64,000 bases of DNA from Polytrichum commune (Eukaryota > Streptophyta > Polytrichopsida > Polytrichales > Polytrichaceae): assembly GCA_950295325.1 (NCBI GenBank), contig OX485806.1:17298001-17362000 (forward strand), written 5' to 3'. How positions within the stretch are numbered: the stretch's first letter is position 1; the number at the start of each line of letters is the position of its first letter. Shown piece by piece: positions 14,801 through 59,728 of the stretch. The notes beneath the pieces were generated by a model. The model had not been told where the DNA came from, made no database searches, and worked only from the letters and a program-made list of their open reading frames with translations. The translations under genes and the position numbers were made by a program.

Positions 14801-15225
14801 ATGAGCAATGCTGCTGATGCTATCGTTCATCGTGAGAATGGTCTTCAAAGGTCCTCAGATGTGGAAGTCAATCACCCTGTTGGGTTAAGAGACCAAAAAT
14901 ACATAAAACTCCTACAACCATGCGTTTTGGCTTATCGTTCAAGCAACGGAACCCAGAGCAGATTTATAAGCAATGCTGATACTATTGTTCAGCGGGATCT
15001 CTATCACTCACTGGAGGATAGACGAAGTAAATTAGGGGAAGATGTAAATATGGTCAACCCTGGACATGAGTTATCTTGAGTGTTGCGATGATTTGCTGAA
15101 GCTGAACATTCTTCAGAGGTCCTCAGATGTGGAGGTCAAGCAACCTATTGGGTTAAGGGGAAAAAACCCTAAAACCATCTGTTTTGGCTTATCGTTCAAG
15201 AAACGGAACCCAGAGCATAAAAATC
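14801..15225 (+). repeat. Imperfect tandem duplication behind the kinase gene
   Basis: A block around 14,803-14,966 recurs at about 14,967-15,225 with inserted DNA. The shared parts are AGCAATGCTG..ACTATYGTTCA, AGGTCCTCAGATGTGGARGTC and TTTTGGCTTATCGTTCAAG followed by AACGGAACCCAGAGCA. The second unit ends at an 18-base C run (15,225-15,242) and overlaps the last codons of the kinase frame on the other strand. Plus-strand frames across the units are open for about 90 codons each but have no known match. Confidence 0.65.
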
Positions 15226-16947
15226 CCCCCCCCCCCCCCCCCTTCCCCCCACACACACACGACACACGACACAAAAATATACATGTTTGTTTGGAAACTT
15301 CACCCAAGGCGAATTTATATTACAGAATACTGTACAATGATTTGAAAGAGCTGCTCTACAATTGACATCTACTGATATGTTCCAATGCAGCTGACTTATG
15401 TACAATTTTTTACACATGAACAGGCTAGCTCTGAATGAGCATTGCCTGACTTCCTGCAATGAAATCCAGTGCTCGTGCCTATCAAGCTCACAATCTCGAG
15501 AACTATCCTGAAATGTGTTGTGAAACTCGAAAACATCGCTGCTGTGGCTGCAATGTCCCGCCTCCTCCGTGTACAAAAAAAATGGTCCGTAAGGCCTTGT
15601 CGAAGGCTCAAGAAGCCCGTCGACAGATACTTCCAGGGTTTTGAACCCTTCCAGTTGAGCGCCAAGAAAATTTTGAGCAACTTCGTTTCCAGGATTGATG
15701 CAGCTGCAAGACGAAGAAGAATCAATGGTCTCATGGTCCATTTGAAGGCCGGTGTTGGTGAACGTAGTTGCTACGGAGGCCTTGTCGTCGTCCATTGCAA
15801 CTTGCGTCGTAGAAACAGAGCATTTGACCATCAAATTCGAGAAAGAAGGTGAGGAAGGAGGAGATCCTTTTGGTGATCGTACAACAATCCATTCCCCGGC
15901 AAAATCGTTGAAGGGAGAGCTGCCCCAACAATTCTCCACCGATTGCTCCTGACAGCTTTTCTGGTTCGGCTCCTCGCACACCAATCCACGCTTCAAGAAA
16001 GACGGCATGCTCAGAATTGGGACCGAGCTTTCGACGGACGAAGCAAGGAAATAACTAGGAAATTGCATCACACTGCAAGGAGAGAGAGGCGCATCCGCAA
16101 CAGCCTTGGCCACGAATCTGGTGGTGAGAAATGGATGGTGGAGCAGTTGAGAGCTTGTCCATCTCTTGCGAGGGTCTCTCTGGAAACACTTGCCCAAGAA
16201 ATCGTGTGCCTCTGCGGAAAGGGAAGCTGGCATTTCGGGAAGCTCATCAGTGCATCCAATGTGGTACAATGCGACCATCGAGTTTGTCAGATTGCTCCAT
16301 GGAGCTCGCCCTGTGGCCATCTCTATGACCGTGCAACCCAAGGACCAGATGTCAGACGGAAGTCCCTGTTCCACCTGCCTCACAACCTCCGGCGCCATCC
16401 ACAACGGTGTTCCATTCACTTTGGCAGAGCAGTTCATTGCTTCGCTCTCACTCTCCATGCCCACCCTCTTGGCGGATCCAAAATCTGTCAGCTTCACGTT
16501 CCCATTCCTAACCAACAGGTTTTTGCCCTTGATGTCACAGTGCACGATTCCTTCTCTATGCAAGTAATCGATTCCCTCCACGATGCTACGCGTGTATGTG
16601 CGAATCAAATGTTCATCCAGCGCTCCCGCACCTGCGAATTGCTTCAGAAAATCTGCCAAGCTCCCTTCGGGCATGTATTCCAAGAATAAGTTGCGCATCA
16701 ACTTCCCACTTTCTTCTGTCCAATCGCTTCCCAAACAGCGCACAACATACTTGGAGTCCAAGGTCTGGAGAAGCTGGATCTCGTTCTCTAGCGCTTGGAG
16801 TGACACCTGTGCCCCTGCGTCTCGCCCATTCACCTCAACCGACTTCACTGCAAAAACCTCCCCATCCTCTCTATCGATCGCAAGGTTCACCGCCCCGAAC
16901 GTCCCTGCGCCTATCAACTTCCCCCGGATCCAGGAATGGCCTGCCAT
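15196..16947 (-). CDS. Plant MEKK-like MAPKKK (MAPKKK17/18 type)
   Basis: This is a Ser/Thr kinase expected to phosphorylate MAPK kinases in a stress or hormone (ABA-type) cascade. The role is inferred from family. I start at the ATG at 16,945-16,947 because its context CCACCATGG is strong and the kinase domain begins at once; the open frame upstream has no other ATG-supported start. In the 583-residue product the Gly loop GAGTFGAV is at 13-20, the ATP-binding Lys 35 is in FAVKSV, and the catalytic loop VHCDIKGKN is at 135-143. DFG is at 155-157, GTPLWMAPE at 179-187 and DIWSLGC at 199-205, with the domain ending near 274. HCD in place of HRD and intronless structure are both usual in this subgroup. 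EWIVVRSP (352-359) matches a tail motif of the group. Known members have about 340-375 residues, so this one is long. Residues from about 496 look non-coding in composition and run through a poly-G tract. The true 3' end may therefore be earlier, spliced or altered by stop loss. Confidence 0.88.
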   Translation of the reverse strand: MAGHSWIRGKLIGAGTFGAVNLAIDREDGEVFAVKSVEVNGRDAGAQVSLQALENEIQLLQTLDSKYVVRCLGSDWTEESGKLMRNLFLEYMPEGSLADFLKQFAGAGALDEHLIRTYTRSIVEGIDYLHREGIVHCDIKGKNLLVRNGNVKLTDFGSAKRVGMESESEAMNCSAKVNGTPLWMAPEVVRQVEQGLPSDIWSLGCTVIEMATGRAPWSNLTNSMVALYHIGCTDELPEMPASLSAEAHDFLGKCFQRDPRKRWTSSQLLHHPFLTTRFVAKAVADAPLSPCSVMQFPSYFLASSVESSVPILSMPSFLKRGLVCEEPNQKSCQEQSVENCWGSSPFNDFAGEWIVVRSPKGSPPSSPSFSNLMVKCSVSTTQVAMDDDKASVATTFTNTGLQMDHETIDSSSSCSCINPGNEVAQNFLGAQLEGFKTLEVSVDGLLEPSTRPYGPFFLYTEEAGHCSHSSDVFEFHNTFQDSSRDCELDRHEHWISLQEVRQCSFRASLFMCKKLYISQLHWNISVDVNCRAALSNHCTVFCNINSPWVKFPNKHVYFCVVCRVCVGGRGGGGGDFYALGSVS

Positions 16948-17260
16948 GGTGGGAAATGGAAATTCTACGCGTCCAAAGCAAATTGCTCCTTTTGATGAAT
17001 CAATCTGCCACCTCGCTCTCGAGCACTGCCAACTTCTCTTTCTTTTTTGCTTTCTTATATGGTCTCCTGGAAGAGGCAAGAGAGCTTGTAGGGTACAAAG
17101 CCCACTCTTTCAGATTGACAACTCTGGAAAGCGGACAAGTATGATTGGAAGGATGTCCTAGCGCAAGAGTTATAAAGGAAGGGCCCGGAGTTAAAATACG
17201 CTTGAAGTGGGTAAGTAAGGGGATCAGACGGGCAGACTGCAACTACTTACTAGAGCAGAC
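16948..17260. promoter_or_regulatory. Upstream region of the MAPKKK gene, TATA-like site
   Basis: The leader next to the start codon is C/T-rich on the minus strand. TATAAAGG (17,171-17,178) reads as a TATA box on the plus strand, and its complement TTTATAA could serve the kinase gene with a start near 17,140. Orientation cannot be settled from sequence. Confidence 0.3.
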
Positions 17261-44433: not shown

Positions 44434-44802
44434 ATGATTTGGCAGAGCCTCTTGAGTGTGCCGGCATCGTTTGGGACACTATATATAACTTATATATGCG
44501 TAAAGAAGTGGAGAAACATGTCATCTACGTACGATGATGTGATTGGGAAGTACGACAATATGTGGGGAGGGAACAAGCTCGTGTGCTGTAGACATCACAT
44601 TGGACAAGTGCACTGGAACATGAGACCAACTAAGGGTTGGTTTAGTCATGCATGTTTAGTGTTTTTACGTAGAGAGGTCTTTCACGGTTATGTCGGGAGC
44701 AACCGATTGCCAAGCTCTCTTTTTCAGGTCCCTGGTGGCTTTGTCATTGAAATAAACTTGTTTCAATTGTCTCAAAAAGAAAACATTCTAAAATTTCGTT
44801 GA
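44434..44802 (+). CDS. Hypothetical 122-codon ORF beside the Tc1-like element
   Basis: The frame begins at ATG 44,434 and ends eight bases before the Tc1-like element. It contains VIGKYDNMWGGNKL and a His/Cys/Trp-containing middle (CCRHHIGQVHW). There is no signal peptide or known domain. The upstream stretch (44,205-44,310) has CTTCATCTTCTT iterations and could be leader sequence. It may be chance or part of a decayed gene. Confidence 0.2.
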   Translation: MIWQSLLSVPASFGTLYITYICVKKWRNMSSTYDDVIGKYDNMWGGNKLVCCRHHIGQVHWNMRPTKGWFSHACLVFLRREVFHGYVGSNRLPSSLFQVPGGFVIEINLFQLSQKENILKFR

Positions 44803-44810
44803 GTTATATA

Positions 44811-46391
44811 CATTGATTCTCAAAACTAAGTCAGTAGGAAAACCAACAAATTATGGGGAAGTCGATATTGATCTTTTTGCCCACCTGTAAATTGGGTCAC
44901 ACGTGCAATTGAACTGGCTATCATCCTTCCAAATTCCAACTCAAGTGTTATAGCAACGAGAGAGAAACTGTATTTTGAATGAACATAGGTCTATTGACTC
45001 GGTTTTGGAATTGTTTTCATCACTCACCTTCAATTGCAAGAAAAAATTTACGATGTTGCCTAGAGTTCTTCCTCTCAGTTATGGTTAGTAGTGTGGTCTC
45101 GTAGAGACATTTTCTCTTACCGTTGAGAAGGTTTTCTTTGCCCATGAGAGTATTACCAGAGGAGAGGAGGTTAAATGCTATAGCCATGTTGCAGCATGGG
45201 CATAGCACACGTGAAGTGTCAAAATTGTTGGGCGCCTCTCAATTTACATGCTCTAGTATTTGTAGAGAGTGTGTTCCTTACATGGAGCCTTCAAGAGGAG
45301 GGTGCCCACGAAGTAGCACCCCTGCTCAACAACGAGTGTGTGTAAGAGCCATCACAGTTGGTGGACTAGACAATGTTGTAGGTGTGAGGAATGCTTTGAA
45401 TAAACACATGAATGTGGTAGTGGCACCAACATAGCGAGGCGTGCACTTCATGAAGCATGTCTTGGGTCATTAGAGAAGCATAAGAAGTCGTTGCTCATAA
45501 ACAAGGATGTGTGTTGCAAGTTGGAAGTTGCTCAACATCATCAAGATTGGACCATCCATGATTGGTATAGGGTGATTTTTACTGATGACCATAAGGTCAA
45601 TCAATTTCAGTTTGATGATCGTACTTGGTGTGTGGGTGAAGGATGGAGAATCTCAAATACAAACTCATCATTTTAGTCATACACTTAAACATGGAGGTGG
45701 TGCAATTTTTGTGTGGCATTGTATGATTTCTAGTGGCATGGGTTACATGTGCAAGATAGAGGGGAAGATGACACAAGCTCTATATCTTGACATTCTTCAA
45801 GATGAAGTCATGAAGAGAATTGAATGGTACCGTTGCAACCCTATTTGTCTCATACTTCAACATGATAATGATCCTAAACATACTGCAAACTTAGTCAAAC
45901 AATGATTGTCAATGCAAAATTTTGATGTACTTATTTGGCCTCCTTAGTCACCTACCCTAAATCCAATTAACCATGTGTGGGCACTTGTGAAACATAAATT
46001 TAATGAGTATCCAACACTAGCCAAAGGAATGCTTCAATTGTGGGAGTGTGCGCAACCTTCTTTCCATTCCATCACTCATGAGTAGTGTCAAACGATCTAA
46101 CCTAGCATGCCCAATCGTATGCAAGCTATTTTAGCTTCTAAAGGAGGGTGGACAAATTATTGATCTAAAAGTAGATGTAGATTAAAATTGAGTCAATGTA
46201 TATAGTTCTTTTCAAATCATTGTTTCTCCATGTGTAGTTTCGCAATACACATGAGAACTTGGAAAATGATGTACTAGACTATGACTATTAACTTACACAA
46301 GTGAAATTTTGTACATCCTTGTTTTTATTTGCATGGCATTGTATGTGAAAATGAATGTAGTAAATTATTGACTCAGTTTTGAGAGTCAGTG
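44811..46391 (+). mobile_element. Tc1-like (Tc1/mariner) element, 1,581 bp, inactive
   Basis: Terminal repeats CATTGATTCTCAAAACTAAG and (complement) CACTGACTCTCAAAACTGAG, each continuing TCARTA, are flanked by TA at 44,809-44,810 and 46,392-46,393. Size, TA target and a single transposase-derived region in the middle are typical of complete Tc1-like elements. A further copy of the terminal motif, ATTGACTCGGTTTTGGA, lies at about 44,993 in opposite orientation to the left end. Confidence 0.85.
45144..46163 (+). pseudogene. Broken Tc1-type transposase (DD34-type)
   Basis: Homology spans a whole Tc1-type transposase. The N-terminal helix-turn-helix (HGHSTREVSKLLGASQFT) is followed by the RGGCPRSSTPAQQ linker and the DWTIHDWYRVIFTDD strand with the first catalytic Asp (45,584-45,586). 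LQHDNDPKHT has the second (45,864-45,866), and the match ends at ASKGGWTNY. The third catalytic position, in SPTLNPINHVW, is 34 codons after the second Asp in the same frame. It reads AAC (Asn) at 45,969-45,971 where Tc1 enzymes have Glu. Frame changes occur near 45,415-45,435 and 45,640-45,676. Stops lie near 45,903, 45,946, 46,083 and 46,100. The 34-residue spacing separates it from the usual plant mariner-like enzymes (DD39D). Confidence 0.85.
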
Positions 46392-46393
46392 TA

Positions 46394-47600
46394 GGAAAAA
46401 CTGTGCAACAACTATTGGTAGCTTGCAAAAGCCATAACTATTGAAAATTTTTGAGCTATTTATCGCTAAAAAGGACGTAACTTTTGATGGAGATGGAATA
46501 TTTGATAATATATCCTCTCCTTTTGGATGGATGATATCATTGAAGTCTTCCCACTTTTGAAAAGGCGTAGCTCTCTATTGGACGAAAAAATATATCCATC
46601 CTTCTTTTACATCCTTCATCAAAAATTATGGATGTAAATAGTTACTTCTCTCTTAATTAAACAACATACTGCACTCCCTATGAAAATTGAAAAAAAAAAA
46701 TCCATGACCATAACTTGTTGGTGGATGATGCCCACAAGTACACAACGTCTCTACAATGTGCGATGCATATTTGTGCATTTAAGAAAGCGTAAATATAGTT
46801 GTGTTTTTATTTCAACATCAAATGCAAAAGGGGGAATAGGAACAAGAAAGTTCCAAATTGCTAAGTGAATGATATTCATATTGTAATTGTCTGTGAATCA
46901 GTACTTATTGTTTTCTTGTCGAATGGTGATTGGACACCATTGTCGTTAACTTCAACTTGACCTCAAACATTACCAAATCCATGTCCAACGAATAAGGTTC
47001 GGTAATCATGGCAGTGGCCAACCCAAGATGATGGATCAACCCAACCCAAAATAATGAAACACTTAACTATTCTCTTACAAATTCTAGGGTGTAACCCTAG
47101 CGTGGGCACTTCCAAACATAAAAGTTTGAATGTTGGATGGAATCGGGAATAGTCTTATCTGGTTGATAATTGCAAGTCGTGTAGATCATCATAATTTCCG
47201 GTTCCATAATTGAAACGGAGATGCATAATATACAAGACATTAAAGTGAAGATTGTCTTCCTCAATAAGTGATGGTGTAATGGTCGCTTCACACTATGGCC
47301 GAAGGTCGAGAAGCCGTTGATTTCCACCAATTAGATTGCAAGAAATCAAGAATTCGGCTTCTCGACTCTTCACACTAGAGGTCAAAGTCCAAAGGCCGTC
47401 ATTCTCCAAAATGCCTACAATGGCAGTACTTTTTTACCAAGCCGACGGACTCTTGAAGGAAGTTTGGGTCGGGCAAGAATGGAAACCCAAAAGATGGTTC
47501 AGAGGCTATCGATGTTTTTTCACAAAAAAAAATTCAAAAACTGACAAGATCTTGGTTTTTAGATTGGAGGGGATGTTTTGGGCATGGAATAAAGTGGTAT
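46394..47600. other. Stretch without recognisable gene
   Basis: No gene is supported. TTCACACTATGGCC near 47,288 recurs at 47,636. Confidence 0.4.
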
Positions 47601-58364: not shown

Positions 58365-59728
58365 CAGTCTAACCTCGTTAGTATGACACTCGTTTATACG
58401 ACACCCTCGATATCACGACACATTTTTGCGCAACCAAACTTTTTAGTTCAAAACTCCCTCTTTTATACGACTACGACACTCGATAATACGACATTTATAA
58501 ACTCCGTTTTGCCATATTAAAGAGGGAATTAATGCTAAAATTCCTTTCATCCATGTTATGTACATCTAGAATTCATCCATTTTTACTTGGGAACTACTTG
58601 AGAACTTCACTTATCATTGGGAACTTAATGATAATTAGGGTTACTCATGTAGAATGGTCTTGGTTAGTGTATCTAAAATCAAAAGGTGATTATGATCTTA
58701 GATAATGCATCTTCACATGTTGTTAGCTCTGCCAAAGTTGGTATTTCAACCTTGTGGTTTTTCAACCTTGGAATTGAGCACCATGACTTTGGTATTCCTT
58801 CCTCCCAATGTTACAAGCGTAGTTCAACCTTTGCATCAAGGTATAATAGCATCTTTCAAAATTCAATACAAGAAGAAACTTTTACTATGGGTTTTGTCAC
58901 AATATGATGATGATACATTGAAGGACTGGAAGAAGGTGGTGCCCAACATCAGACATGTTATCATGTGGAGTTGTGAAGTATGGAGTGAGTTGGATGCACA
59001 GATAGTTAGGAATTGTTGGAGGATGGCGCGTCTATTACCTACAACATGGAATGTTGACTTTGCCCTAGTTGATGAAAGGGGGAAAAATAGAATGCAAGAA
59101 GAATCAGATGAACATGGTGCTATGATTTCAAAGTTGCGATTGGGTGATGATGAGATGTCAATCGAGACTTACATTCAGATGGAAGGGGAAGAGATTACTA
59201 AGCTAGAATTGGGTACTAATGAGTTGGTGGATGTTGCTTTGAGAGTCGATTATGCACAAGGCTTTGATCTTAATGTTGATCTACATTCAATAGATGTGGA
59301 TGATGTTGCTCCACCTACAATATAGCGTAGTGATGCTAAACGTCATGCATCATTGTTGTCTAATTTCTTATTAGACAACTCTTTACATTTTGTTGTTAAT
59401 GAAATTATTAGTTTTCAAAAGCTAGTAGAGAATTTAGATAAGATGATAGTTGCTAACTTAGGTAGGCAACACCAGAGATCTTTGAACTCTTACTCCAAGA
59501 GTTCTCGAGAGTATTTGTATTTGTTTGCAGTTATGAGTTATTATCTCGTACAATCTATGTTGCTTAAACTTGTTGTATATGTTTTTAAGCTCATATTGCT
59601 TATGTTTTTGTATCCCCTCGATAGTACGACAATTTTATGCCATTTGTCATATTAACGAGAAGACAACACCTCAATAATACGACATGTTTTGCGTTTCCCA
59701 AACGTGTGATACTAAAGAGGGAGAACAG
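58365..59728 (+). mobile_element. pogo/Tigger-like element, 1,364 bp, copy 1
   Basis: The ends CAGTCTAACCTCGTTAGTAT and (complement) CTGTTCTCCCTCTTTAGTAT are imperfect TIRs of about 28 bp. TA flanks at 58,363-58,364 and 59,729-59,730. Iterated TATACGACACTCG-like words fill both subterminal regions. It retains only the C-terminal part of the transposase region, so it is itself internally deleted. Confidence 0.8.
58683..59325 (+). pseudogene. 3' part of a pogo/Tigger transposase (DDE_1 type)
   Basis: The motif ILDNASSH (second catalytic Asp, GAT at 58,701-58,703) is followed in another frame by LVFLPPNVTSVVQPLHQG and IIASFK, the hallmark of pogo/Tigger enzymes related to CENP-B. The final catalytic Asp of QPLDQG is His here (CAT, 58,834-58,836). 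The frame change fits a 16-bp tandem duplication of TTTCAACCTTGTGGTT (58,744-58,775). Removing one unit would restore phase. The rest (59,000-59,325) is the acidic C-terminal tail of such proteins. The N-terminal CENP-B-type DNA-binding domains and the first catalytic Asp are missing. Confidence 0.8.

Follow-up and report, generated by a model that had tools for sequence, protein, structure and literature searches.

At positions 44811 to 46391 of the window, by which we mean the whole 64,000-nucleotide stretch of DNA analysed, lies a 1,581-bp Tc1-like element with TA duplications, terminal inverted repeats and a broken transposase gene. In the description that follows, counts out of 28 refer to aligned copies of the same family (family A) in the same genome, namely the 28 best-scoring of 44 rows returned by a DNA search, the other 16 being shorter or mere pieces. 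The majority-column frame is the one built from columns present in at least half of these 28 copies.

44809 to 44810, no strand: left TA target-site duplication (TA also on the left in 24 of 28 copies)
44811 to 46391, plus strand: whole Tc1-like element, 1,581 bp, set by its ends, its repeats and its genome copies
44811 to 44836, plus strand: left terminal inverted repeat, 22 of 26 nt matching the other end
45144 to 46163, plus strand: broken transposase gene; the majority-column frame has 339 codons followed by a stop
45144 to 45560, plus strand: two N-terminal helix-turn-helix domains (HTH_23 type and HTH_Tnp_Tc3_2 type), from Pfam, limits approximate
45584 to 45586, plus strand: first catalytic Asp (D in 25 of 28 copies)
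45864 to 45866, plus strand: second catalytic Asp, in HDNDPKHT (D in 25 of 28 copies)
45969 to 45971, plus strand: third catalytic position, Asn (AAC) in the window copy and Glu in 20 of 28 copies
46140 to 46160, plus strand: C-terminal KGGWTNY motif, read in the majority-column frame
46366 to 46391, minus strand: right terminal inverted repeat, pairing with the left repeat at 22 of 26 nt
46392 to 46393, no strand: right TA target-site duplication (TA also on the right in 15 of 28 copies)

The first-pass annotation of this DNA had described an element with complete ends, TA duplications and terminal inverted repeats, and its boundaries turned out to be exact. With the TA counted in, the inverted-repeat arms of the window element measure 28 nt and agree at 86%, and the agreement between the 26-nt arms without TA is equalled by none of 200,000 random pairs of 26-mers drawn from the window. 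A 25-base end pattern, allowing at most two mismatches, finds 63 matches in the genome and none for the reversed control. The window copy has TA on both sides, as do 12 of the 28 aligned copies, and the 3' ends of several copies are decayed or truncated. The sequence CAGTG stands at the 5' end of a single copy and at the 3' end of a single copy, the commonest ends being CATTG and CACTG. The window family thus largely lacks the terminal CAGT that PMC4054914 gives as a criterion for Tc1-like elements, in the moss as in other plants. Because the first three bases are subject to decay and variation, we attach little importance to this rarity, although it does set the family apart from PpTc1, one of the published moss elements. 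The two flanks of the insertion were also joined and searched in the genome for an empty site; of the 35 pieces recovered, two are the original flanks and the other 33 are repeat pieces with 66-94% identity, and none of the 35 crosses the junction. These 33 pieces show that parts of both flanks (44500 to 44810 and 46392 to 46599) recur elsewhere in the genome as old dispersed repeats.

The transposase region is read on the plus strand and is divided between frames. It had been called full-length though broken, which the family alignment bears out. The 339-codon frame starts at an ATG (45144) retained in 19 of 28 copies and ends at a stop (46161) found in more than 40% of them, and none of the columns between these two points exceeds 40% stops. 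Against the columns common to most copies, the window copy has acquired four in-frame stops, together with an insertion and a deletion of a single base each, and it cannot give rise to a working transposase today. Indeed, every one of the 28 aligned copies is broken, with one to nine stops each. The catalytic columns are separated by 92 residues (first to second) and 34 residues (second to third), which is the DD34E arrangement. The earlier observation that the second and third catalytic positions lie 34 codons apart in one frame is therefore confirmed at 45864 and 45969, and the assignment to the Tc1-like DD34E class stands on the residues kept by most copies, the window copy itself having Asn in place of Glu.

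The same columns bear on whether the element could be a plant mariner of the DD39D type, which PMC7325037 treats as a separate family, PlantMar. A plant host would suit such an origin, but a PlantMar element has 39 residues in the second interval and Asp in last place, which the spacing of 34 and the Glu of 20 of 28 copies refute; moreover, PMC7325037 records PlantMar from flowering plants, and from a few oomycetes as well, but not from bryophytes. We therefore give this assignment practically no weight.

Domain searches agree with the Tc1-type reading. Among six translated rows (five family members and one member of a related group, family B), Pfam recognizes PF13358 (DDE_3) and PF01498 (HTH_Tnp_Tc3_2) in all six and PF13384 in three. 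When the window copy is taken as four separate frame pieces, one matches HTH_23 (E 0.00072, a match that falls below the curated cut-off when the window copy is taken alone), another matches DDE_3 (E 0.17) and two match nothing in Pfam. Read through its stops in the genome search, the same copy passes the DDE_3 cut-off with 41.9 bits (E 2.3e-8). A profile made from the six rows matches Sleeping Beauty at 9.5e-53 versus 3.2e-8 for Mos1 and is thus nearer to the Tc1 type than to the mariner type. A profile made from the 28 family rows alone, run within a set of 20, also recognizes the Sleeping Beauty domain (7.3e-48).

The DNA search covered the whole genome (408 Mb, 64 contigs) and returned at least 44 rows, which fall on contigs C1-C7 and C59. 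As 40 of 197 candidates were scored, the copy counts given here are lower bounds. The best 28 of the 44 rows are spread over all seven large contigs (C1-C7, 42-78 Mb), whose number and size suggest seven chromosomes. Their mean pairwise distance is 0.184 (range 0.136-0.237), that is, about 82% identity, and their mean distance to the per-column majority is 0.109. The pairwise distance being about twice the distance to the centre, the copies form a star, which is the pattern of a single burst. Changes from C to T reach 0.293 at CpG versus 0.099 at other C. Divergence is 0.111, 0.102 and 0.081 at the three codon positions and 0.130 outside the gene; without an excess at third positions, the copies look decayed in the absence of selection. 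If a rate of 1% per million years holds, which we borrow from PMC4054914, the burst would date very roughly to 11 million years ago. Two rows, C59:4409-5716 and C1:37826950-37828257, have equal score, identity and query span and are probably an assembly duplicate.

Could the element belong to a fungal or animal contig that contaminated the assembly or was misassembled into it, an outcome named beforehand as fatal to the proposal? The presence of copies on all seven large contigs leaves this idea unsupported. The 23 nt on each side differ between copies, no pair sharing 15 or more flanking bases apart from L021 and L039, and parts of the flanks of the window copy recur on other chromosomes. Nothing was found that speaks for contamination, and we regard it as wholly improbable. 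The exceptional pair, L021 and L039, shares 19 of 23 bases in its left flanks, as expected from insertion in the same repeat or from a segmental duplication.

The nature of the host was approached through contig C8 (146,561 bases), whose frames read as rbcL, accD, ycf2, psbD, psbC and psaB, gene names that were assigned by eye except for rbcL and psaB. The psaB stretch scores best (901.6 bits) against the structures 7ksq, 6l35 and 8htu, which we take to be Physcomitrium patens photosystem I, the next entries reaching 892.7 and 873. For rbcL, the best match is 9chz (1079.8, followed by 1059.3), presumably a hornwort enzyme. The plant setting that had been assumed for this DNA thus holds, with the plastid genes of C8 and a psaB closest in score to the entries we assign to P. 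patens, and on these sequence matches the host is most likely a moss or, with less probability, another bryophyte. Two pieces of rbcL also lie in large contigs, at C3:14137891-14138196 (L010, within a 181-codon open frame) and C2:70106055-70106189 (L011); they are plastid DNA moved to the nucleus.

Two other frames of the window deserve mention. On the minus strand, 15199 to 17109 is a long open frame that encodes an entire protein kinase domain (PF00069, E 6.3e-64); it lies where the window is richest in GC and is probably an intronless host gene. On the plus strand, 58702 to 59322 is an open frame with a partial transposase domain (DDE_1, PF03184, E 2.3e-11), presumably of the pogo/Tigger type. 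Scans of the whole window for tRNA genes and Rfam families found nothing.

Taken together, these observations make it almost certain that the window element is a fossil copy of a family of Tc1-like (DD34E) cut-and-paste DNA transposons resident in a plant, most likely moss, genome. Judging from the star-like divergence, the family would have spread in one burst, after which the 28 sampled copies would have decayed with the strong loss of C to T observed at CpG. Such decay fits what is expected under DNA methylation, which we presume here. Against this identification we count the rarity of CAGT at either end, the failure of the flank search to recover an empty site, the TA on both sides in only 12 of 28 copies, and a moss identity that depends on the source organisms we assign to PDB entries.

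Family A does not stand alone. A DDE_3 search of the genome, in which 150 of 457 candidates were scored, gave at least 149 matches, 148 of them above the cut-off. Beside family A, no fewer than four other Tc1-type groups (B, C, D and E) were recognized. Open frames were inspected in eight DDE_3 loci, then in four of these together with four loci of the family B search and 13 fetched stretches; because stretches were picked for their score or for an open frame, groups B to E are a biased sample. Family B is represented by a full-length open transposase frame at L017:1354-2565 (C1:29374917-29376544), in an element with CAGTG ends and repeats flanked by TA, and another open frame, 405 codons long, lies within a family B match at C6:19174978. 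A search with L017 recovered, besides itself, four full-length copies and one nearly full one, all at 95-97% identity, as well as two more matches that span 1,243 or more of the 1,628 bases with 95-96% identity. The shorter pieces are mostly at 93-98%, with older relatives at 65-70%. From its sequence, family B appears young and possibly still mobile.

Six frames of group C (L048, L050, L018 on the minus strand, L055, L056 and L060) have the D-34-E arrangement. Of the two group D frames, L059 retains D and L052 has G. Group E (L019, L051, L049, L054 and L018 on the plus strand) is marked by MEDGAPVH and has the same spacing in four of its five frames, the fifth, L054, not being caught by the D-34-E pattern. 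Several frames of groups C, D and E are long and open. Among the stretches inspected, the family profile found no match in L012, L053 or L058, and no frame of L013-L016 matched in the first inspection of open frames. L012:994-2049, and by eye L016 likewise, belongs to a further DDE_3 group beyond the reach of the family profile; in Pfam, L012 has DDE_3 and a weak HTH_32 without HTH_Tnp_Tc3_2.

A tree of the catalytic domain (20 rows) joins A with B (support 93/92) and C with D (87/85), and sets E apart (100/100). Some loci matched by the profile were left off, namely L044, which is the L017 site a second time, the family B loci L045 and L046, L055 together with both L060 frames (put in group C from their motif or on visual inspection) and L057 (unplaced). 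Over this domain, representatives of A to D share 38-58% identity with one another, 33-40% with Sleeping Beauty and 21-31% with E. Support in this tree is moderate. Sleeping Beauty, its only outside sequence, is loosely placed on a long branch, and the program cautioned that a false attraction between this sequence and group E may be at work. Given the distance of 0.109 from the majority and the several related groups, the spread of family A within the genome is not recent and the family is not isolated.

These data can be set against two main accounts of how such elements came to be in mosses. According to the first, which the first-pass annotation had proposed and which we place just short of an even chance, the Tc1-like lineage was acquired by mosses through horizontal transfer, with a fungus or an animal as donor. 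Its published basis is the grouping of the two known moss Tc1-like transposases, PpTc1 and PpTc2, with fungal elements and apart from Marchantia or other plant sequences, which PMC7466625 (2020) presents as a possible sign of transfer from fungi. In the window family itself, the motifs noted above point the same way, since the likeness runs to enzymes of that kind as described further on. What weighs against transfer is the age of family A and the company of at least four more Tc1-type groups, and for the same reasons any transfer need not belong to family A. Searches for donors were made in collections not meant for fungi or animals and are uninformative on that account: the family profile (A1) matched a pattern in 130 stretches of viral contigs and in 84 stretches of prokaryote genomes, with none confirmed in either, and the family B protein alone matched no stretch of the viral contigs.

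The second account, plausible but held with somewhat less assurance, is long vertical residence, in which one or two ancient Tc1-like lineages persisted in mosses and radiated in successive bursts. The higher identity of A to D among themselves than to Sleeping Beauty and the pairing of A with B and of C with D are what would be expected in that case, as is the coexistence of an old family A, broken in all 28 copies, with a young family B that keeps open frames. The tree behind this argument has a single, long-branched outside sequence that may draw E falsely, and support is moderate; in addition, the distribution among plants is patchy, with nothing similar in Selaginella, according to PMC4054914. 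Finally, Tc1-like transposons may have passed from fungi or animals into mosses on several independent occasions, the present genome recording at least two entries, A-D and E, with one family young and possibly mobile. The low identity between A-D and E is the basis for this proposal, which we consider rather unlikely. The published identity of 26% between PpTc1 and PpTc2 (PMC4054914) suggests that A-D and E may correspond to the PpTc1 and PpTc2 types.

The window copy alone is an ordinary transposon fossil. Its family nevertheless extends the Tc1-like elements of one well-studied moss to what is most likely another moss genome, or adds a further family. The coexistence, in a single genome, of a young family with one that is old and dead offers material for dating bursts and for testing the published idea of passage from fungi to mosses.

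HDNDPKHT and KGGWTNY resemble motifs of fungal Tc1 enzymes, and this is the likeness counted above in favour of transfer. Set beside known systems, the family shares with Sleeping Beauty (PDB 5cr4) the DD34E arrangement and the same catalytic domain (profile positions 112-338, E 9.5e-53), and differs from it by an identity of 33-36% over that domain for two family members and by the host, a fish in the case of Sleeping Beauty according to PMC4054914. Any kinship with impala and related fungal Tc1-like elements would be that of the published moss elements, which group with fungal ones in PMC7466625. With PlantMar it has in common the superfamily and a plant host, the two differing in their catalytic signature (DD39D versus DD34E).

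PMC4054914 (2014) already describes Tc1-like DD34E elements, PpTc1 and PpTc2, in P. patens, along with segments in nine flowering plants. In the first-pass interpretation, the Tc1-like DD34E nature and the plant genome hold, whereas the implied surprise at such an element in a plant does not, because that paper and, for the grouping of moss with fungal elements, PMC7466625 were already in print. In the open-licence literature, judged by title or abstract, we found no recognizable report of Tc1-like elements in a second moss. Compared by published description, PpTc1 and the window family are alike in the DD34E signature, the TA duplication, a moss host (most likely here) and size, with 1,584 bp and 338 residues in PpTc1 (PMC4054914) and 1,581 bp and about 339 codons in the window family. 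They differ in their ends, as PpTc1 is reported in the same paper with CAGT and 33-nt repeats, whereas the window family mostly has CATTG or CACTG and repeats of about 26 nt. They also differ in condition: full-length copies of PpTc1 average 96.3% identity and include nine intact genes in that account, whereas the copies of the window family are about 82% identical and all 28 are broken.
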